Virus record (IMG/VR): IMGVR_UViG_3300050026_000198
Span: 1 to 28,900 of that record
Direction: 5' to 3' (one strand)
From: a virus
DNA length: 28,900 bases
Positions 383 to 26,583 of this stretch are shown here, piece by piece (positions within the stretch are counted from its first letter, which is position 1; every line of letters begins with the position of its first letter). The notes beneath the pieces are model-generated. The model had not been told where the DNA came from. It saw nothing but the letters and a program-made list of their open reading frames with translations, and did no database searches. The position numbers were made by a program, and so were the translations under genes.

Positions 383-483
383 ACGCACTCACTCTCGCTT
401 TCGCCATCCTCCTCTACGTGGTCGCACTCATGGTGCTCGCCGCCTTCGTGATCGTCGTGCTCGGGATCGTGGGGATCTCGTGA
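379..483 (+). CDS. Small single-span membrane peptide (34 aa)
   Basis: ATG at 379 overlaps the stop of the preceding gene (ATGA). The 34-residue product is almost entirely hydrophobic from residue 5 to 32 (Leu, Val, Ala, Ile), which is one transmembrane helix with a short N-terminal tail. Its stop overlaps the GTG of the second methyltransferase-locus frame (GTGA) and lies 1 nt before the methyltransferase GTG at 485. There is no family assignment. Tiny membrane peptides in phage early operons include holin-like and superinfection-exclusion proteins, but nothing here selects a role. Confidence 0.6.
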   Translation: MNALTLAFAILLYVVALMVLAAFVIVVLGIVGIS

Positions 484-1571
484 CGTGGCTCTTACCTGTC
501 TCTCTCTGTGCTCCGGCTACGGAGGACTTGAGCTCGCCGTCGATGTCGTCCTTGGATGTCGAGTGGTGGGTTACGTTGAGCGGGACGGCTACGCGGTGTC
601 CGTCCTCCTGGCAAGGATGGAAGACGCGACCCTGGCACCGGCTCCTGTTTGGTGCGGCAACCTCGAAGACCTGGACACCGCCCCGTTTCGCGGAGTGGAC
701 CTCGTCACCGCAGGATTCCCATGTCAGCCCTGGTCCGCTGCAGGGAAGCGGAAGGGGACCGATGACGAACGGTGGATCTGGCCGGCCATCGCTTCACTTC
801 TTCGCAGAGTTCAACCGCGATTCGTGTTCCTGGAGAACGTCCGCGCCCTCGTTTCTGGGGGAGGACTGGGACTCGTCCTCGCTGACCTGGCCGACCTCGG
901 GTTCGATGCGGAGTGGACGGTGCTATCTGCGGGAGAGGTCGGTGCTTCCCAGCAACGGGAGCGAGTTTTCATCCTGGGCCACGCCCGAAGCGCACGCCCG
1001 GACCTTTACGCCGCGGGACGTGGATCATGGGATCGCACTGGCAAACCAGGTAAATCTTTGGCCCACGCCAGTAGCACACGACGATCAGAAATCGCCCGAG
1101 GCGCACTTGGCGATGAAAGCCCGCATGAAGGGTGGACCGCGGACGAAGCCGACCTCGCTGACGGTGGTGGCGAAGATGTGGCCGACGCCGCGGGCAGAGA
1201 ACGGGATTCCATGGAACAACCAAGCATGGGAGCGTCCGCTGGACCAACCGCAGAACTTGGAAAACGCTGTCGCCAGGTGGCCGACGGCGACATCGCGGGA
1301 CGGCAAAGGACGGGATGCCCCAGGTCGGACCGGGGGCATGTCGCTCCCCGAGTTCCTCCATTCCCACCAGGACCAGACGAACGGGACCTCTGGAACGCCA
1401 TCCTCGAATGCGAGCCGGGTCTTGAACCCTCGCTTTGTCGAGTGGCTGATGGGGCTGCCGATTGGCTGGGCGCTGCCTACGCCTCTCGGGACGATCAACT
1501 GCGGTTGCTTGGCAACGGTGTCGTCCCCCAGCAAGCCGAAGTTGCCTTGCGGATCCTTTGGGAGCGATTGA
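480..1571 (+). CDS. Overlapping-frame protein with WPTP repeats and LNPRFVEWLMG motif
   Basis: A second open frame covers the same bases as the methyltransferase. It starts at GTG 480, which overlaps the previous stop as GTGA with GGGG six bases upstream, and ends 5 nt before the methyltransferase stop; 363 residues. It carries W118-R-T-S and LTWPTSGSMRSG near 135, WATPEA at 166, LWPTP at about 193, MWPTP at about 233, RWPTA at about 266, and LNPRFVEWLMGLPIGW from 315. I recall these elements, in this order, from a family of phage and metagenomic proteins usually found beside or labelled as cytosine methyltransferases; this needs a search. By eye the third codon positions from about 1020 to 1500 are richer in G/C in this frame than in the methyltransferase frame. 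Function is unknown; a role in target recognition or as a methyltransferase partner is inference. The alternative is that it is a conserved shadow of the methyltransferase. Confidence 0.5.
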   Translation: MTWLLPVSLCAPATEDLSSPSMSSLDVEWWVTLSGTATRCPSSWQGWKTRPWHRLLFGAATSKTWTPPRFAEWTSSPQDSHVSPGPLQGSGRGPMTNGGSGRPSLHFFAEFNRDSCSWRTSAPSFLGEDWDSSSLTWPTSGSMRSGRCYLRERSVLPSNGSEFSSWATPEAHARTFTPRDVDHGIALANQVNLWPTPVAHDDQKSPEAHLAMKARMKGGPRTKPTSLTVVAKMWPTPRAENGIPWNNQAWERPLDQPQNLENAVARWPTATSRDGKGRDAPGRTGGMSLPEFLHSHQDQTNGTSGTPSSNASRVLNPRFVEWLMGLPIGWALPTPLGTINCGCLATVSSPSKPKLPCGSFGSD

Positions 1572-1576
1572 GATGA
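485..1576 (+). CDS. DNA C5-cytosine methyltransferase
   Basis: This 363-residue protein transfers a methyl group from S-adenosylmethionine to C5 of cytosine in DNA. Motifs in order: AdoMet-binding motif I around residues 7-16 (CSGYGG), catalytic motif IV GFPCQPW with Cys81, motif VI ENV at 118-120, motif VIII QQRERVF at 157-163, and C-terminal motif X GNGVVP at about 343-348. All lie in one frame, so the enzyme looks complete. The region between 165 and 335 should hold target recognition, but it is low in recognisable structure and its third codon positions look less G/C-rich than those of the overlapping frame. The GTG start follows the previous stop by 1 nt. It probably protects phage DNA from host restriction or marks the phage's own DNA, alongside the adenine methyltransferase at 10046. 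Codon use suggests a coding conflict with the frame at 480-1571. Confidence 0.9.
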   Translation: MALTCLSLCSGYGGLELAVDVVLGCRVVGYVERDGYAVSVLLARMEDATLAPAPVWCGNLEDLDTAPFRGVDLVTAGFPCQPWSAAGKRKGTDDERWIWPAIASLLRRVQPRFVFLENVRALVSGGGLGLVLADLADLGFDAEWTVLSAGEVGASQQRERVFILGHARSARPDLYAAGRGSWDRTGKPGKSLAHASSTRRSEIARGALGDESPHEGWTADEADLADGGGEDVADAAGRERDSMEQPSMGASAGPTAELGKRCRQVADGDIAGRQRTGCPRSDRGHVAPRVPPFPPGPDERDLWNAILECEPGLEPSLCRVADGAADWLGAAYASRDDQLRLLGNGVVPQQAEVALRILWERLR

Positions 1577-9261: not shown

Positions 9262-10049
9262 TGCCGCGAGTTCCGCGCCCTTGGTTCCGCTTCTACAGCG
9301 AGACGCTCGGGGACGGCAAGATTCGCTGCCGTCCGCCTGCCGAACGATGGTGTTGGACCGCACTTTTGTGCATCGCAGGTGAGGCCGAAGAGCGCGGCGA
9401 ACTGACGATCGGATCACACCCTGCTACACCCTGCGAGATAGCTGACTTGGCCGCACTACCTGTCAAGACGGTGCGCTCTGCACTTGACTACTTCGTCGAG
9501 GAAAAAATGCTCGCTGACCAGGGAGGAGTGCTAGTTGTGGCGCGATGGAAAGAGCGGCAGTTCGAGTCCGACGAGTCGATGGAACGAACAAGGAAATACC
9601 GCGCCAAGGCGGGAGGTAGTGACGACTTCTCGCCGTCACAACGCCGTCACTGTGACGGACGTAGTGACGGGTTAGCAACTCCCCAGAGAACAGAGTCAGA
9701 GAACAGAGTTAAAAGCAGCAGCGAAGGCGACAACTTTGAGCAGGCCGTGGAAATCCTCGCGCAGCGCAGGCTGAACCGTTCGACAAAGACGATCCGCAAC
9801 CCCGAAGGCTGGCTTGCAGGAGCAAGGGCAGGACTTATGGGAGACCACGCCGAGGCCGCAGCACTAGCACCCGGCGGTATGACGCCAACCCAGCTCGCCG
9901 ACTGGCTCGAGCCGCCACCGAAGCCACCGCGAGCCGAAGGAGCGCGCATCCCCGAGACACCGATGCCCGAGATGCAAGGCGCGCCGAGCGAGGCAGGAAA
10001 GGCCGCGATGGAAGCACTCAAGGCGAGTGTGAGAGCGACGAAAGCGTGA
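9261..10049 (+). CDS. Phage replication initiator / replisome-organiser-like protein (DnaD-like)
   Basis: ATG at 9261 shares its first base with the WhiB stop. The N-terminal 110 residues resemble the winged-helix domain of phage replisome organisers: PRPWFRFYSETLGDGKIR, RWCWTALLCIAGE, a helix-turn-helix-like LPVKTVRSALDYFVEE, then GVLVVARWKERQFESD and ERTRKYR. The middle is polar. Residues about 158-190 hold a shorter helix (EILAQRRLNRSTKTIRNPEGWLAGA), a layout seen in DnaD-like proteins. The tail is Pro/Ala-rich. Such proteins bind the origin and load helicase; no helicase or loader was seen here. No clear iteron repeat marks an origin inside the gene. Confidence 0.7.
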   Translation: MPRVPRPWFRFYSETLGDGKIRCRPPAERWCWTALLCIAGEAEERGELTIGSHPATPCEIADLAALPVKTVRSALDYFVEEKMLADQGGVLVVARWKERQFESDESMERTRKYRAKAGGSDDFSPSQRRHCDGRSDGLATPQRTESENRVKSSSEGDNFEQAVEILAQRRLNRSTKTIRNPEGWLAGARAGLMGDHAEAAALAPGGMTPTQLADWLEPPPKPPRAEGARIPETPMPEMQGAPSEAGKAAMEALKASVRATKA

Positions 10050-11053
10050 AGGCCCCTTTTGTCTGGTTCGGAGGCAAGCGCAAGGTAGCGCCGCAAGTCT
10101 GGGAGGCACTCGGCGATGTGGACAACTACGTCGAGCCGTTCGCTGGCTCTCTCGCCGTCCTCTTGGAACGTCCTCACCACCTCGCAGACGGCTCGTGTCG
10201 CGCCGAGACGGTAAATGACGCGGATCACTACTTGGCGAACTTCTGGCGAGCCTTAGCGTCCGATCCTGAGATTGTGGCTGCATACGCGGACTGGCCGGTG
10301 AACGAGGACGACCTGTTCGCCCGCCACCTGTGGCTCGTGAACGAGGGGCGAGCGACGTTGGCACAGGGACTCGAACTGGACCCGATGTTCTATGACGCCA
10401 AGATTGCCGGCTGGTGGGTCTGGGGTGTCAATGCCTGGATCGGTAGCGGCTGGTGCTCGGGCACCGGCCCGTGGGATTACGAGGCAACGCGGGCCAGGGC
10501 GTCAACCGCCAGCTCCCTCACCTCAGCAGCGGACGAAGACGATACGAGCCAGCTCCCTCACCTCGGCAACGCGGGTCGGGCTGGCTATAACAACCTGAGC
10601 TACCGCAGCGCGGGTATTGCCGCCTACATGAGCCAACTCGCCGAGAGGTTGCGCGACGTCAGGGTTTGCACGGGTGACTGGTCACGGGTCGTCACGAAAG
10701 GCGCGCTGAGCTTCGGGGCGTCGGTTGGAGTGTTCCTCGACCCGCCTTACGCAGAGGATGTGCGAACCGCTGGTCTGTATGCGAGCGAGACGGTCGATGT
10801 CGCCATCGCTTGCAGGGACTGGGCGATAACTAACGGCGACAACCAGCGCTATCGAATCGTGCTGGCGGGCTACTCCACAGAGCACGACGACGCGATCCCG
10901 AAGTCTTGGCGTCGCATCCGCTGGTCGGCGTCTGCCGCCTACCAGACGAGCACAAGTAGTGGCGGCAACAAGGACAACCGACACGGCGAGGTGCTCTGGT
11001 GTTCGCCAGCGTGCTTAGTCACACAAGCGTCGCTCTTTGATGAGGCGTCATGA
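10046..11053 (+). CDS. DNA N6-adenine methyltransferase (Dam-like, D12 class)
   Basis: This 335-residue protein has the D12-class order: WFGGKRKVA at 7-15 (motif X), VEPFAGSLAV at 29-38 (motif I, AdoMet binding) and catalytic DPPY at 232-235 (motif IV). It should methylate adenine in double-stranded DNA. GTG at 10046 overlaps the preceding stop. The segment around residues 148-180 is odd. A 17-bp sequence is repeated 40 bp apart (10508-10524 and 10548-10564), and the first copy in another frame would read GQGVNRQLPHL, like the in-frame SQLPHLGNAG that follows. This suggests a compensated frameshift in a tolerant loop. Catalytic motifs are outside it, so activity may remain. Confidence 0.88.
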   Translation: MKAPFVWFGGKRKVAPQVWEALGDVDNYVEPFAGSLAVLLERPHHLADGSCRAETVNDADHYLANFWRALASDPEIVAAYADWPVNEDDLFARHLWLVNEGRATLAQGLELDPMFYDAKIAGWWVWGVNAWIGSGWCSGTGPWDYEATRARASTASSLTSAADEDDTSQLPHLGNAGRAGYNNLSYRSAGIAAYMSQLAERLRDVRVCTGDWSRVVTKGALSFGASVGVFLDPPYAEDVRTAGLYASETVDVAIACRDWAITNGDNQRYRIVLAGYSTEHDDAIPKSWRRIRWSASAAYQTSTSSGGNKDNRHGEVLWCSPACLVTQASLFDEAS

Positions 11054-21554: not shown

Positions 21555-21716
21555 CTGAACGTCCGAGGGAAAGTGCCCTAGAAACTGCCTGGTGTCGGTC
21601 GGCGCGCCATCGTCGCGGCCAGGAACAACAGGACTGATAGGGACAGGGCATCGATGCTGGCTTTGGCAGCCGAAGGGTGTGCCGCCCACTAACGACGGCG
21701 CGTGTAGGACGTTCAG
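21555..21716 (+). ncRNA. Possible structured RNA leader between tRNA and glycosyltransferase
   Basis: A perfect 10-bp inverted repeat, CTGAACGTCC (21555-21564) and GGACGTTCAG (21707-21716), would close a 162-nt RNA domain. Inside, TGCCCT (21574-21579) pairs with AGGGCA (21645-21650), enclosing CCTGG (21588-21592) with CCAGG (21619-21623), and a small GCTG/CAGC hairpin follows (21656-21670). The ribosome site of the next gene lies just after the closing stem. There is no homology support; it may be chance. Confidence 0.3.
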
Positions 21717-21735
21717 CCTTTCTCAAGGGGGAATC

Positions 21736-22374
21736 GTGGGAGCACCGATCACGGTAATTACCGCGTCCATCCCGGGTCGCGAGGCCCTACTAGGTCTCAC
21801 CCTCGCCAGCGTTTACAACCAGACGGTAGAGGTCGACGCACATTTGGTGATGGCGCAGTCATGCACCGAGGGTCTGATCCCACCGGTCCACGTAGCGATG
21901 CAGCAGAACGCCTTACTCCCCGCCGTCCGCTCCACATTCTGCATGCGCCTAGCTGATGACGACCAGCTCCTGCCGCATCACATCGAGACCTATCTGCCGC
22001 ACCTGGCCGACGCCGACGTCATCTACTCGTGGGACGCCAACGGTGATCGCCCGCGCGTCGACTGTAACGGGTGGGACACGGGCCGCCTCTGTGCCGAACT
22101 CGACCGACGGAACTGGATAGACGGGTCCGCCGTCGCCATCCGTACGGTCATACTCAAGCAAGTCGGCGGATGGCCGACTGACTGGGTAGGTGGCAGTCAC
22201 ACGGACGGCTCTGGTCGGTTCGTCGCCTCCAACTGCGTGGCCGAGGACTGGGGCTGCTTCATCGCCCTAGCACACGCTGGCGCCCGGTTCCGTTGCATCC
22301 CCGAGCCGACATGGCTATATGGCAACGGCGACTGGGTGAGGAGTTCCGACGGATGCCCGCCACCCATGCGCTAA
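21736..22374 (+). CDS. Glycosyltransferase family 2-like protein
   Basis: GTG at 21736 is chosen because AGGGGGA stands just upstream and the GT-A fold begins there (ITVITASIPGREALLG). Residues 74-76 are Asp-Asp-Asp in RLADDDQLLPHH, the DxD-type nucleotide-sugar/metal site. Later come WIDGSAVAIRT, VGGWPTDW and EDWGCFIALAHAG, where the conserved Glu-Asp is the usual catalytic-base region of GT2 enzymes. At 212 residues it is a compact single-domain enzyme. Donor and acceptor are unknown. It opens the glycan cassette. Confidence 0.75.
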   Translation: MGAPITVITASIPGREALLGLTLASVYNQTVEVDAHLVMAQSCTEGLIPPVHVAMQQNALLPAVRSTFCMRLADDDQLLPHHIETYLPHLADADVIYSWDANGDRPRVDCNGWDTGRLCAELDRRNWIDGSAVAIRTVILKQVGGWPTDWVGGSHTDGSGRFVASNCVAEDWGCFIALAHAGARFRCIPEPTWLYGNGDWVRSSDGCPPPMR

Positions 22375-23060
22375 AGATCGCGCACTGGTATCACGCCTAC
22401 GCCTTCGGCAACTGGCAGAAGATCGTTACCAGTCACCTTGAAGCGCTCGAATCGAGCGGGTTGGCCGCCGAGGTCGGAACGCTCCACCTCGGGATCATCG
22501 GTCCACAAGCCGAACGGCTGGCCCTGGCTGCGCTGTGTGCGAAGCACCTACCCGTCGAGATAGAGGCGCAAGCCGATACCGGTTGGGAACAGGTCACCCT
22601 CGAGGCGCTCCGCAAGAAGGCTGGCACGTTCGACGTCGTGCTCTACGCCCACACCAAAGGCGTCAGTAACCCGGAGGGCTCCGACGAGCACTACGAGAAC
22701 ATCTGGCGCTGGTCGATGACGGCCGAACTGATTACCGGGTGGCAGAAGTGCGTTGCCCTGCTCGATGAGCACGAAGCGGTTGGGTGCCACTGGGTCTGCC
22801 ACTCCGAGGTCAATCGCTACTGCAACGACCCGGGCACCTACTTCTACGGCGGCAACTTCTGGTGGGCACAGTCGAGTCTCTTGAAGCGCCTGAAGCCCCC
22901 GCGCGCCGACACCCGTTACGACGCTGAGCTCTGGTTCAGCCTCAACGGCCCCGTCGACGCGTTCGATCTCACGCCCGGTTGGCCGGAGCCGAAGAACTTC
23001 ACAGCGCCGCCGCCAATGGTGAACGTCGACACGAGCGGCCGCTACAGGGGCAAGACATGA
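22353..23060 (+). CDS. Glycosyltransferase-like protein (AHTKG type)
   Basis: ATG at 22353 follows GAGGAG at good spacing and overlaps the previous gene by 22 nt. The 235-residue product has ALKIAHWYHAYAFGNWQKIV at the start, a central VVLYAHTKGVSNPEGSDEH, then WRWSMTAELITGWQKCVALL and YFYGGNFWWAQSSLLKRL. The AHTKG and GNFWWA phrases recur in phage and bacterial proteins tied to polysaccharide synthesis. No classical DxD is seen, so the exact family is unsure. Confidence 0.6.
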   Translation: MPATHALKIAHWYHAYAFGNWQKIVTSHLEALESSGLAAEVGTLHLGIIGPQAERLALAALCAKHLPVEIEAQADTGWEQVTLEALRKKAGTFDVVLYAHTKGVSNPEGSDEHYENIWRWSMTAELITGWQKCVALLDEHEAVGCHWVCHSEVNRYCNDPGTYFYGGNFWWAQSSLLKRLKPPRADTRYDAELWFSLNGPVDAFDLTPGWPEPKNFTAPPPMVNVDTSGRYRGKT

Positions 23061-23767
23061 ACACCGTCGCCATTTACACCGCCATTTTCGGCAGCTTCGA
23101 CTGGTTGAAGACGCACCCGGACATCCCCGGCGTCGACTTCGTCGCGTTTACCGACGACGAGTCCCTGACGGCCCGCGAGGACTGGCGCGTCATCACAGTG
23201 CCGCCATCCAATAATCCTCGGCTCACCGCCAAGTATCCGAAGATCGTCGGGCCGCAGTCGCCGCCACTGGACAGTTACGAGGCGACCATCTGGATCGATG
23301 GATCGATGGAGATCCTGACCCCTGCCTTCGGAGAGGCATTCGCCGACCTTGGTCCCGATGACCTTGCGCTCTTTCGTGCTGAGCACGGCGACTGCATCCA
23401 CGAGGAGGCTAGGCGCAGCATCGGGTGGGACAAGTACGACGGGCAACCGATCCGCGAGCAGGTCGAGTACTACCGCAGTCTCGGCTACCCAGACCACGCG
23501 GGTCTGTGGCCCTGTGCCGTGATAGGACGAGCCAAGTCCACCCGCGTCGATGCGCTGATGTCCGACTGGATGGGAGAGATCGAGCGCTGGTCGCTGCAGG
23601 ACCAGATCAGCCTTCCGTTCGTCCTGTGGCAGCACGGGTTTACGCCACACGAGTGGCCGCACTATCCCCCAGGCAACGACGGGTGCCGGCACCCGGTCGA
23701 GAATCCTTGGCTCTTTCTCCACACCCACTCAGCATGGCCGATGAACTGGGCAGGCGGTCGTATATGA
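23057..23767 (+). CDS. DUF616/TOD1-like glycosyltransferase-type protein
   Basis: ATG at 23057 overlaps the previous stop. The 236-residue product begins VAIYTAIFGSFDWLKTH and continues VDFVAFTDDESL, PRLTAKYPKIVG and ATIWIDGSMEIL, the set of phrases of the DUF616 (TOD1/MUCI70-like) domain, which has a GT-A-like fold. FTDD and WIDGS hold the acidic residues expected at the sugar-nucleotide site. The C-terminal half has DQISLPFVLWQHGF and a Trp/His-rich end. Activity and substrate are unproved. Confidence 0.7.
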   Translation: MNTVAIYTAIFGSFDWLKTHPDIPGVDFVAFTDDESLTAREDWRVITVPPSNNPRLTAKYPKIVGPQSPPLDSYEATIWIDGSMEILTPAFGEAFADLGPDDLALFRAEHGDCIHEEARRSIGWDKYDGQPIREQVEYYRSLGYPDHAGLWPCAVIGRAKSTRVDALMSDWMGEIERWSLQDQISLPFVLWQHGFTPHEWPHYPPGNDGCRHPVENPWLFLHTHSAWPMNWAGGRI

Positions 23768-24636
23768 GAGCCCTAGTCACCGGCAGCGCGGGCTTCATCG
23801 GACGGCACTTCGCCGCCCGTCTTGTACAAGATGGACACCATGTTGTCGGATGCGACCCGGCGCACCTGCCTCACCTCACCTGGTGCGGGGACTGTCGGCG
23901 CATCTTCGCCCGCGACGACAACGGCTACGACCTCCTAGTCCACTGCGCCGCCGTCATCGGGAGCAGACAGGAGCGCGACGACAACCCGATGGCCGTCTAC
24001 GAGAACCTCGCGCTCGACCAGATGGCGATTGCCTGGTGCCTCCGAACCCGGACCCCGCTGCTCTACTTCTCGTCATCGGCCACGTACCCGACCAACATGA
24101 GGGGACCGTTCCGCGAGACAGACGTGGACGTGGCCGAGAACATCATCCGCCCGGACGCGGCTTACGGGTTCATCAAACTCGTGGGGGAGCGTCAGTGCCG
24201 GGAGCTGAAGGCCGCGGGAGTGCCCGTGTACGTCGTGAGGCCGTTCTCGGGCTATGGGACGGACCAGAGTGCCGATTACCCCTTCCCGGCCATTATCGAG
24301 CGTGTCCGCCAGCGTGAGGACCCGCTCGTCATCTGGAGCGACACCGAGCGCGACTTCATCCACGTCGATGACGTTGTGGGCGCCTGCATGGCGATGATCG
24401 CTGTTGCCTACATCCCCGGCCCGGTCAACATCGGGACCGGCATCCCGACACGCATGAGCGCACTCGCCCGGCTCGCGGCCGACATCGCAGGGTATGACCC
24501 GAGCATCAAGAGCCTCGGCAAGTCGGCGGGCCCGGACCACCGCTTCGCCGACATCAGCCTCATGAAGAACTTCTACCTCCCAACCATCACCCTCGACCAG
24601 GGGATCACCGAAGCACTAAAGGAGCCGCCATCATGA
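23764..24636 (+). CDS. NAD-dependent sugar epimerase/dehydratase (extended SDR)
   Basis: ATG at 23764 overlaps the previous stop. The Rossmann motif is TGSAGFIG at 6-13; LLVHCAAVIGS follows, then SSSATYP near 104-110, the catalytic Tyr134-x3-Lys138 in AYGFIKLVGE, and RPFSGYG, typical of nucleotide-sugar epimerases and dehydratases. Later RDFIHVDDVVGA and GPVNIGTG complete the family signature. At 290 residues it is close to normal length. It probably makes an activated sugar for the neighbouring transferases. Confidence 0.88.
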   Translation: MRALVTGSAGFIGRHFAARLVQDGHHVVGCDPAHLPHLTWCGDCRRIFARDDNGYDLLVHCAAVIGSRQERDDNPMAVYENLALDQMAIAWCLRTRTPLLYFSSSATYPTNMRGPFRETDVDVAENIIRPDAAYGFIKLVGERQCRELKAAGVPVYVVRPFSGYGTDQSADYPFPAIIERVRQREDPLVIWSDTERDFIHVDDVVGACMAMIAVAYIPGPVNIGTGIPTRMSALARLAADIAGYDPSIKSLGKSAGPDHRFADISLMKNFYLPTITLDQGITEALKEPPS

Positions 24637-24872
24637 CTGCAGTCGTTTATGCCAGAGACACGCTCAGCACGGGGACCAAGGCCGGTCTTACGGTGCATTT
24701 AACGCAAGGAGCCGTGTGGGCAGCGGATGATCCCATTTGTACAGAAAGACCTGACCTGTTCAGCCCCGAGCCGACGACTGTGTGTCGCACAACCGCTCCG
24801 ATCACCATCGGTGAGCTTCGCGGCGAGGTCGAGCAGGCCACCCGGAACCCTGGCCAGCGCCGCAACCGGTGA
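24633..24872 (+). CDS. Hypothetical protein (79 aa)
   Basis: ATG at 24633 overlaps the epimerase stop, with AAAGGAG upstream. It has TVHLTQGAVWAADDPICTERPDLFSPEP and an Arg-rich end. The GAVWAADDP/ERPDLFS phrase resembles small proteins near head-tail genes in actinophages, as far as I recall. No known function. Confidence 0.6.
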   Translation: MTAVVYARDTLSTGTKAGLTVHLTQGAVWAADDPICTERPDLFSPEPTTVCRTTAPITIGELRGEVEQATRNPGQRRNR

Positions 24873-25147
24873 TGGACACAATCATTACACCCGAGATTGG
24901 CGCGCTTCTTAAACAACGCGAGCGCAGCGCCCTTCGGCGAGAGAACGCCGTCCTACGTGGCATAGTCGGCAATCTTGCAGCGCGGAACGACGATCTGTCA
25001 CGACCGCTCGTGGTGCCAACAAGTGCTCTCGAACGTAGTTATGACTTTCCATTTCACCTAGGCGTGGCTGGGTTCGGTCAGCGCCTCATCACGATTCGAC
25101 CGGGAACCGCCAGCGATGTTGCTGAGAAACTCCGCGCCATCCAGTGA
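24869..25147 (+). CDS. Hypothetical protein (92 aa)
   Basis: GTG at 24869 and ATG at 24872 are both possible starts and both touch the previous stop. Residues about 5-45 form a charged helix (IGALLKQRERSALRRENAVLRG), likely a coiled coil. The C-terminal part is beta-rich (LGVAGFGQRLITIRPG). The function is unknown. Confidence 0.6.
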   Translation: MMDTIITPEIGALLKQRERSALRRENAVLRGIVGNLAARNDDLSRPLVVPTSALERSYDFPFHLGVAGFGQRLITIRPGTASDVAEKLRAIQ

Positions 25148-26583
25148 GGGGCCAAGCCGCCGGCAAGACCACGACAGTGGAGCACGCCGCCGCCGACCAA
25201 AATAACGTCTTCCTTGCCTACCTCCACCCGCACGAGGTCACGTCGAGCTTTCACAAGTCCCTCATTGACCTCATCGGTCACGACCTGTCCGGTCCCCGCC
25301 GCCTCCACTCGTGGTGCCAGGTCCAGTGCGGGGCGATGGGCATCCCCGAAGGCCGCAACGATGCGTGCCGGAAGATGTTGCTCACCGACTGCGAGTGGCT
25401 GTTCTTCATCGACGCCGATATGGGTTTTGAGCCATGGGTGCTGGAGATGCTGCTGTCCGTTGCCGACCCGAAGGTTCGCCCCGTCGTCGGTGCGCTGGCT
25501 TTCGCTCAACGCGAGACAGGGCCGGATGGAATGAACGGTTTCCGCTGCCGTCCGAACCCGACCATTATGGACTTCGTCGAGCACCCCGACGGGCACTGGC
25601 GCCACACCGGCCGCAGTCACTATCCCGTCAATGCCCTCGTGAAGTGCAGCGGGACCGGTGCCGCCTGCCTACTCATCCACCGCTCGGCCCTCGAGGCAAT
25701 CGGCGAACACTGGTTTGATCGGATCATGGACCCCGCCGGCAAAGACCTGATGGGCGAGGACGTCAGCTTCTGCGAGCGCCTCCGCGTGAACGAGATCCCG
25801 CTCCACATCCACACGGGCATCCGCACATCGCACTTCAAGCACCTATGGCTGTCCGAGCCGGACTTCTGGACCTCGTTCGTGCCGCCGCCGGCTACCGAGC
25901 GCGTCGACGTCATCATCCCCGTGCTCCACCGGCCGCAGAACGTCGAGCCGCTCATGACATCGCTCATCGCTTCGACGGGGCTGGCGACAGCCTGGTTCGT
26001 CTGCGAGGCGGGCGACGAGGAGGAGATTGCCGAGGTCATCCGCTGCGGTGGCGAAGTCATCACCTCGCCTGAGTGTCATAGCTTTCCGCAGAAGGTGAAC
26101 CTGGCCTACGATTTCATTGCCGACGACCTCAGGGGTGAGCACGAGCTCGCGCCCTGGATTCTGCTAGTCGGCGACGACGTGCGTTTCCGCCCGGCGTGGT
26201 TGGATCACGCCCAGGACGTCGCCCGACGCTACGGCGCCCAGGTGGTAGGGACCAACGACCTGGCGAATCCTCGCGTCATGCGCGGTGAGCACTCGACGCA
26301 CTCGATGATCCGCCGCTCGTACATAGACGAGCTCGGGGCGAGCTGGGATGGACCGGGCGTCGTTTGCCACGAATCGTATTTTCACTGGTGCGTTGACGAC
26401 GAAATAGTCACAGTCGCCAAGCAACGTGGCGTCTTCCAGTCAGCGATGGCGTCAGAGGTCGAACATCTCCACCCATACTTCGGTGGTGGCGAGATGGACG
26501 AGGTCTACAAGGCAGGCGAGAAGCACGCCGCCGAAGACAAGGCAGAGTTCGAGCGCCGGGTGAAGGCCAACCTGCCACACTGA
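25144..26583 (+). CDS. Two-domain glycosyltransferase
   Basis: GTG at 25144 overlaps the previous stop. The 479-residue product holds two GT-A-like domains in tandem. The first (about 20-240) has a metal site Asp90-Ala-Asp92 in WLFFIDADMGFEPW, then PVVGALAF and a conserved GEDVSFCERL, with HIHTGIRTSHFKH after it. The second (about 255-460) begins RVDVIIPVLHRPQNVEPL and has GDDVRF with Asp344-Asp345, VVGTNDLANPRVM and a CVDDEIVTVAKQ segment. Such fusions may add two sugars in sequence. It ends the glycan cassette, 15 nt before the connector gene. Confidence 0.75.
   Translation: MRGQAAGKTTTVEHAAADQNNVFLAYLHPHEVTSSFHKSLIDLIGHDLSGPRRLHSWCQVQCGAMGIPEGRNDACRKMLLTDCEWLFFIDADMGFEPWVLEMLLSVADPKVRPVVGALAFAQRETGPDGMNGFRCRPNPTIMDFVEHPDGHWRHTGRSHYPVNALVKCSGTGAACLLIHRSALEAIGEHWFDRIMDPAGKDLMGEDVSFCERLRVNEIPLHIHTGIRTSHFKHLWLSEPDFWTSFVPPPATERVDVIIPVLHRPQNVEPLMTSLIASTGLATAWFVCEAGDEEEIAEVIRCGGEVITSPECHSFPQKVNLAYDFIADDLRGEHELAPWILLVGDDVRFRPAWLDHAQDVARRYGAQVVGTNDLANPRVMRGEHSTHSMIRRSYIDELGASWDGPGVVCHESYFHWCVDDEIVTVAKQRGVFQSAMASEVEHLHPYFGGGEMDEVYKAGEKHAAEDKAEFERRVKANLPH

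Follow-up and report, generated by a model that had tools for sequence, protein, structure and literature searches.

A phage C5-cytosine methyltransferase gene that probably encodes two subunits in overlapping reading frames

M.EcoHK31I and M.EaeI are two-polypeptide C5-cytosine methyltransferases (MTases) of YGGCCR sites, and Lee, Kam and Shaw are reported to have described in 1995 that the beta polypeptide of M.EcoHK31I is encoded inside alpha, in another frame. The larger polypeptide of M.EcoHK31I contains conserved motifs I-VIII and X and the smaller one contains motif IX; its recognition domain has been placed in the large subunit, a placement that is itself a prediction (PMC3404938). M.AquI is divided within the variable region, such that motifs IX and X are both on the small subunit (PMC3404938). 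A second frame has also been described in the ShiLan element, an out-of-frame HNH endonuclease within a phage methylase (PMC11855218).

We analysed a 28.9 kb phage record (G000; "the window" denotes this whole stretch) in which an MTase gene is open in two frames of one strand, A and B (Table 1). As in M.EcoHK31I, the large polypeptide (A) has motifs I-VIII and X and is without IX, the small polypeptide (B) has IX, and, as is reported for that enzyme, the gene for the small polypeptide is read in a different frame of the same DNA as that for the large one. Unlike in M.EcoHK31I, compared here by its published description, profile and selection evidence puts the recognition region in B. As in split C5-MTases of the M.AquI type, two subunits would supply one enzyme, but motif X is retained by A, and the overlap of the two genes is complete. 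In both this locus and the ShiLan element, the methylase gene of a phage conceals a second frame; unlike ShiLan's inserted homing endonuclease, B appears to be the enzyme's own recognition region. An HNH endonuclease of the ShiLan type in B was rejected, as B has no Pfam or HNH match and matches phrog_1008. Taken together, the sequence evidence makes it quite likely that the locus encodes a two-polypeptide C5-cytosine MTase with beta nested in alpha, as in M.EcoHK31I. Enzymes of this two-polypeptide kind are known in principle; what is new is their breadth and the presence of the recognition region in beta.

Frames A and B and the parts of one methyltransferase

Both frames lie where the preliminary description had placed them, and the strings it listed for frame B (LTWPTSGSMRSG, WPTP and LNPRFVEWLMG) are all present there. 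The overlap of the frame B GTG with an upstream TGA was likewise confirmed, as GTGA. That stop ends a 34-codon hydrophobic ORF (379-483) that overlaps both of its neighbours, by ATGA and GTGA, and that possibly couples translation into B. The adjoining 14-382 encodes an alanine-rich low-complexity protein with AAHAAQAAAARAA repeats that matches phrog_8332 (function not assigned). Farther along the window, a 335-codon ORF (10046-11053) matches phrog_56, "DNA methyltransferase", over its first 85 residues and has no match over the remainder, and a glycosyltransferase cluster with a nucleotide-sugar epimerase (21592-26580) is located between the major head protein and head-tail adaptor genes.

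Table 1. Features of the nested locus. wA and wB, defined in the text, measure constraint on frames A and B.
Feature	Position	Strand	Remarks
Frame A, proposed alpha subunit	485..1576	+	363 codons
Frame B, proposed beta subunit	480..1571	+	363 codons; +1 relative to A
Frame A start, GTG	485..487	+	sole usable start past the last upstream in-frame stop
Frame B candidate start, GTG	480..482	+	5 nt before A start; coupled to upstream stop (GTGA)
Candidate alternative internal B start	750..764	+	GGAAGGGG, then ATG 762-764; ATG frequent there in family
Catalytic domain, motifs I-VIII, frame A	494..1003	+	PF00145 positions 2-168; family wA 0.32-0.33
B core, target-recognition-like WPTP region and motif IX	909..1502	+	hhalign to in-frame C5-MTase C-terminal regions
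Frame A linker	1004..1430	+	no stops; wA 0.90 (0.82-1.00; this and all 88-locus intervals are too narrow, being resampled from non-independent pairs), wB 0.38; mostly pLDDT <50
Motif IX equivalent, frame B	1422..1469	+	LNPRFVEWLMGLPIGW; frame A reads PSLCRVADGAADW there
Motif X segment, frame A	1484..1573	+	SRDDQLRLLGNGVVPQQAEVALRILWERL; profile of in-frame MTase C-termini E 1.2e-8; wA 0.28, wB 0.95

Frame A matches phrog_363 and, over residues 4-173, PF00145 (E 8e-33), and has motifs I-VIII of a C5-cytosine MTase, including PCQ (GFPCQ at 713) and ENV (LENV at 830). In an AlphaFold2 (AF2) model of A, pLDDT is about 95 for residues 1-170 (the catalytic domain) and reaches about 97 in the helix of motif X, while residues 191-286 and 316-326 are disordered (pLDDT <50); Foldseek matched the model to the catalytic domain of M.HhaI and M.HaeIII. 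The PF00145 match covers only the first part of the 324-position profile, no motif IX is recognisable in frame A (CRVADGAADW stands at that place), and A aligned with a profile of the C-termini of in-frame enzymes at motif X only. Contrary to what had been claimed, A therefore does not hold every motif from I to X: the Pfam match stops at position 168, IX sits in B, and A does not unite the recognition region and IX with I-VIII in a single chain. Read in frame B, the linker DNA is the recognition region. By the genetic code, the A-type MTase C-terminus RV[AV][DHNY]GVPxRVDRL is VEWLMGFPxGWTDL read one base earlier, and this pattern may flag nested MTases in databases.

Residues 69-330 of frame B match phrog_1008 (E 1e-29), and the in-frame MTases L006, L081 and L093 match the same family at about positions 131-320, downstream of their motif VIII. 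When B residues 144-341 were compared by hhalign with the C-terminal regions of in-frame C5-MTases, they aligned with Prob 99.0 and E 4.6e-18, and VEWLMGLPIGW of B aligned to motif IX; P317, E321, W322 and M324 are invariant among 70 B proteins. Single-chain C5-MTases with LPTP repeats (L006, L066, L081, L093, L011) share the catalytic domain with this locus and the LPTP/IX region with B but, unlike the locus described here, have everything in one frame. Since its core aligns to in-frame MTase C-termini, B would carry motif IX and the recognition region of the same enzyme, and since B aligns at 144-341 and A at motif X only, A and B would hold each conserved part once. By these alignments, the core of B consists of the same C5-MTase's recognition region and motif IX, moved into the other frame; "recognition region" is a label that the WPTP region takes from its position between VIII and IX. 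B had been described as a separate phage protein family, and it had been asked whether WPTP lacks independent homologues. Neither was the case, as the core is homologous to what single-frame C5-MTases carry at their C-terminal end, and independent in-frame homologues of the WPTP/EWLMG region exist elsewhere. Pfam and NCBIfam searches of B gave no match, and a PDB sequence search with a B profile gave nothing credible (top match ribosomal L32e, E 0.23). A fold search was dropped because the AF2 model of B alone was too poor (pLDDT 55.5, pTM 0.24).

Stop codons and selection in homologous loci

A by-eye shift of G/C-rich third positions from A to B had been noted, and was roughly right: GC at the A third position falls from 0.64-0.74 upstream of about 900 to 0.48-0.56 at 940-1270, and that at the B third position is 0.68-0.80 across 1000-1500. 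The high B value is not B-specific, however, since the B third position is the same base as the A first position and is GC-high throughout. Synonymous shuffling of A at this locus alone left B open in 7.6% of trials (P 0.076), and the reverse test gave 0.02%; the openness of B in this locus alone is unremarkable and compatible with chance. The significance of the open frames comes from the homologues, not from this locus by itself.

Across 215 loci, the median number of stops expected was 3.7 in B and 7.4 in A, none was observed, and P was <=0.05 in both directions at 197. Because these overlaps were defined as stop-free, a regional test over 106 dereplicated nested loci, with the A protein and codon usage fixed, is cleaner. 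B stops numbered 3 over VI-VIII, where 107.6 were expected, and 121 over I-IV, against 183.1; the third-frame control gave 605 observed and 640 expected over I-VIII (0.94) and 542 and 479 over the linker (1.13). The VI-VIII deficit was also present in 38 loci from genomes (1 observed, 36.4 expected) and in GC-poor loci (GC <0.55; 0 observed, 34.1 expected). A stops in the linker were 0/304, a count conditioned on an open A, but A is interrupted in only 2 of 167 loci. With B as the query, ascertainment favours an open B and does not favour an open A. The valine codon preceding EWLMG in frame B is GTC, GTG or GTA, and in none of 96 loci GTT, which would put a stop into A. The stops in B that might have been found in homologous loci are missing from the motif VI region onwards.

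Selection was estimated by sorting substitutions by their effect in both frames (NN, SN, NS, SS), in a manner like that of OLGenie, with wA = NN/SN and wB = NN/NS. Among 88 loci of the window type, wA/wB was 0.33/0.86 over I-IV, 0.32/0.69 over VI-VIII, 0.90/0.38 in the recognition region, 0.60/0.25 at motif IX and 0.28/0.95 at motif X. In a second set, the L101-like loci, wB was 0.15 (0.11-0.20) inside B versus 0.54-0.90 outside, wA was 0.28 inside B versus 0.13-0.21 outside, and the A-synonymous rate fell from 0.42-0.46 outside to 0.16 inside B. In sliding windows constraint passed from A alone to both frames, then to B alone and back to A alone. Between the window locus and its nearest relative, L014, both frames are constrained at 785-1000 and 1290-1500 (NN vs NS, p=1.3e-4; NN vs SN, p=0.004). 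Selection is therefore a mosaic: it acts on A at I-VIII and X, on B at motif IX and in the recognition region, and on both frames in part of the overlap. The proposal of dual coding across phages stands insofar as two frames are selected and the arrangement recurs, and second-frame substitutions are not neutral in the recognition region or at IX, but dual coding is not full-length: over most of the overlap, amino-acid selection acts in one frame at a time, and the B stretch over I-IV is under little selection.

Proposed translation of frame B and alternative readings

At this locus B may start at GTG 480 or at ATG 762, the latter of which may be a by-product of the KGxDDE motif of A. Start spacing identical to that of the window is found in L033 (GTGACATGG), the A and B start codons of L014, L016 and L018 overlap, 2 nt apart, and in a Salmonella-phage-like clade B begins 4 nt after A, with M-S-W-L. 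A B start beside the A start (MxWL) is present in 73 of 199 loci, mostly of one clade. B has a stop inside A upstream of motif VI in 43 of 100 dereplicated loci, so full-length B is not general. All 27 L101-like loci have the B ATG at the same place; in most of them it is preceded by GAGG, and in many a B-frame stop lies directly ahead of it. Elsewhere, clear GGAGG sites accompany an internal B start about 160-185 nt before ENV.

The motifs of B could be by-products of the codons of A's conserved motifs, with B itself untranslated. By the genetic code several of them follow in part from A (S-W-R/K-T/M from FLENV, G-M/T-M/T-x-N/S-G from GYDAEW, WPTP from VADA/LAHA and, as one possible outcome, EWLMG from RVADG), and B is nearly neutral over I-IV. 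Such a shadow is nevertheless extremely improbable, given that the constraint in the recognition region and at motif IX falls on B, with A near neutral in the former, that nearly all of about 108 expected B stops over VI-VIII are missing, that other MTases carry this region in frame as their C-terminus, and that an internal start with a Shine-Dalgarno sequence is conserved. The selection seen in the L101-like and 88-locus sets and the regional stop counts led us to abandon the reading of every B motif as a codon shadow.

Programmed frameshifting from A to B after VIII, possibly with a return before X, would instead produce one fused chain, and selection alternates from A to B to A just as such a fused enzyme would demand. 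At three loci (L002, L003 and L005), A ends past VIII and B contains the recognition region, IX and X. Double shifting does not, however, require that A be open through the linker, as it is in 165 of 167 loci, nor does frameshifting account for the near absence of B stops upstream of the shift point or for the Shine-Dalgarno sequence of the L101-like B start, often right behind a B-frame stop; we regard it as unlikely. A might alternatively be a working single-chain MTase with a divergent C-terminus, and B an independent regulator or inhibitor derived from an old recognition region. Motif X is kept in A, the RVADG segment is moderately constrained (wA 0.60), and many annotated MTases resemble A. 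Because A has neither IX nor a confidently folded recognition region, and because its near-neutral linker makes a sequence-reading domain there unlikely, we consider this very unlikely.

For the preferred reading, a nested two-polypeptide MTase, we infer translation of both frames, heterodimer assembly, methylation activity and its purpose. Frame A would produce alpha, in which a long unstructured linker joins the AdoMet-binding catalytic domain (I-VIII) to the helix of motif X. Beta would come from frame B, separately started at the coupled GTG 480 or at ATG 762 within A, and would supply motif IX and the target-recognition region with its WPTP repeats. Assembled in trans, the two subunits would form a single complete C5-MTase that would mark phage DNA, presumably against host restriction.

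Recurrence of the nested arrangement

All 11 phage records found with B contain an MTase with some form of +1-frame partner, and some 280 further loci came from three scans of viral sequences and one that covered 84,980 prokaryote genomes; B homologues are present at >200 loci. A motif census by regular expressions, with counts that were not dereplicated and include near-duplicates, placed IX in B and X in A at 167 loci, of which 165 have A open through X and 2 have A interrupted; 4 split loci have both IX and X in B, 41 have no IX by the pattern used, and the others have IX in A with repeats in B or A, or no X by pattern. The loci of Gordonia phage Float294 and Mycobacterium phages Jarcob and Mundrea (L002, L003, L005) are M.AquI-like, with IX and X on B. 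In these and L251, A stops just past VIII and B has repeats, IX and X, which could mean two subunits or a frameshift. In a further variant (L101 and L182-L207), IX and X are in A and the LPTP region alone is nested in B; B of L101, a plasmid locus of 36% GC, is 177 codons long. The nested arrangement occurs in phages (of Salmonella, Acinetobacter and Microcystis), in plasmids and in genomes of many bacterial phyla and archaea, including GC-poor ones.

Annotation at such loci usually gives one of the two proteins. Both nested CDSs are annotated in Paenibacillus phage Bloom, and PHROG already holds phrog_1008 and phrog_363, both as "DNA methyltransferase" families. Our literature search found no paper linking the two as two frames of one gene, and a search on overlapping C5-MTase genes found nothing relevant.

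We lean towards the view that nested two-frame C5-MTases are a major, mostly overlooked phage and prokaryote class in which a single-chain enzyme was converted, perhaps repeatedly, such that the catalytic subunit's gene harbours the recognition subunit in its +1 frame, and the near-neutral A linker and B N-terminal part are open only for the sake of the other frame. Extended gene overlaps are considered rare in bacteria and their phages, and proof of them is difficult; this case could be used as a benchmark, since it offers scores of independent homologues, matched controls from the third frame and the flanks, and a function that can be read. Many phage and prophage entries for "DNA cytosine methyltransferase" would describe only half an enzyme, so that tests of activity, predictions of specificity and annotation would be misled.
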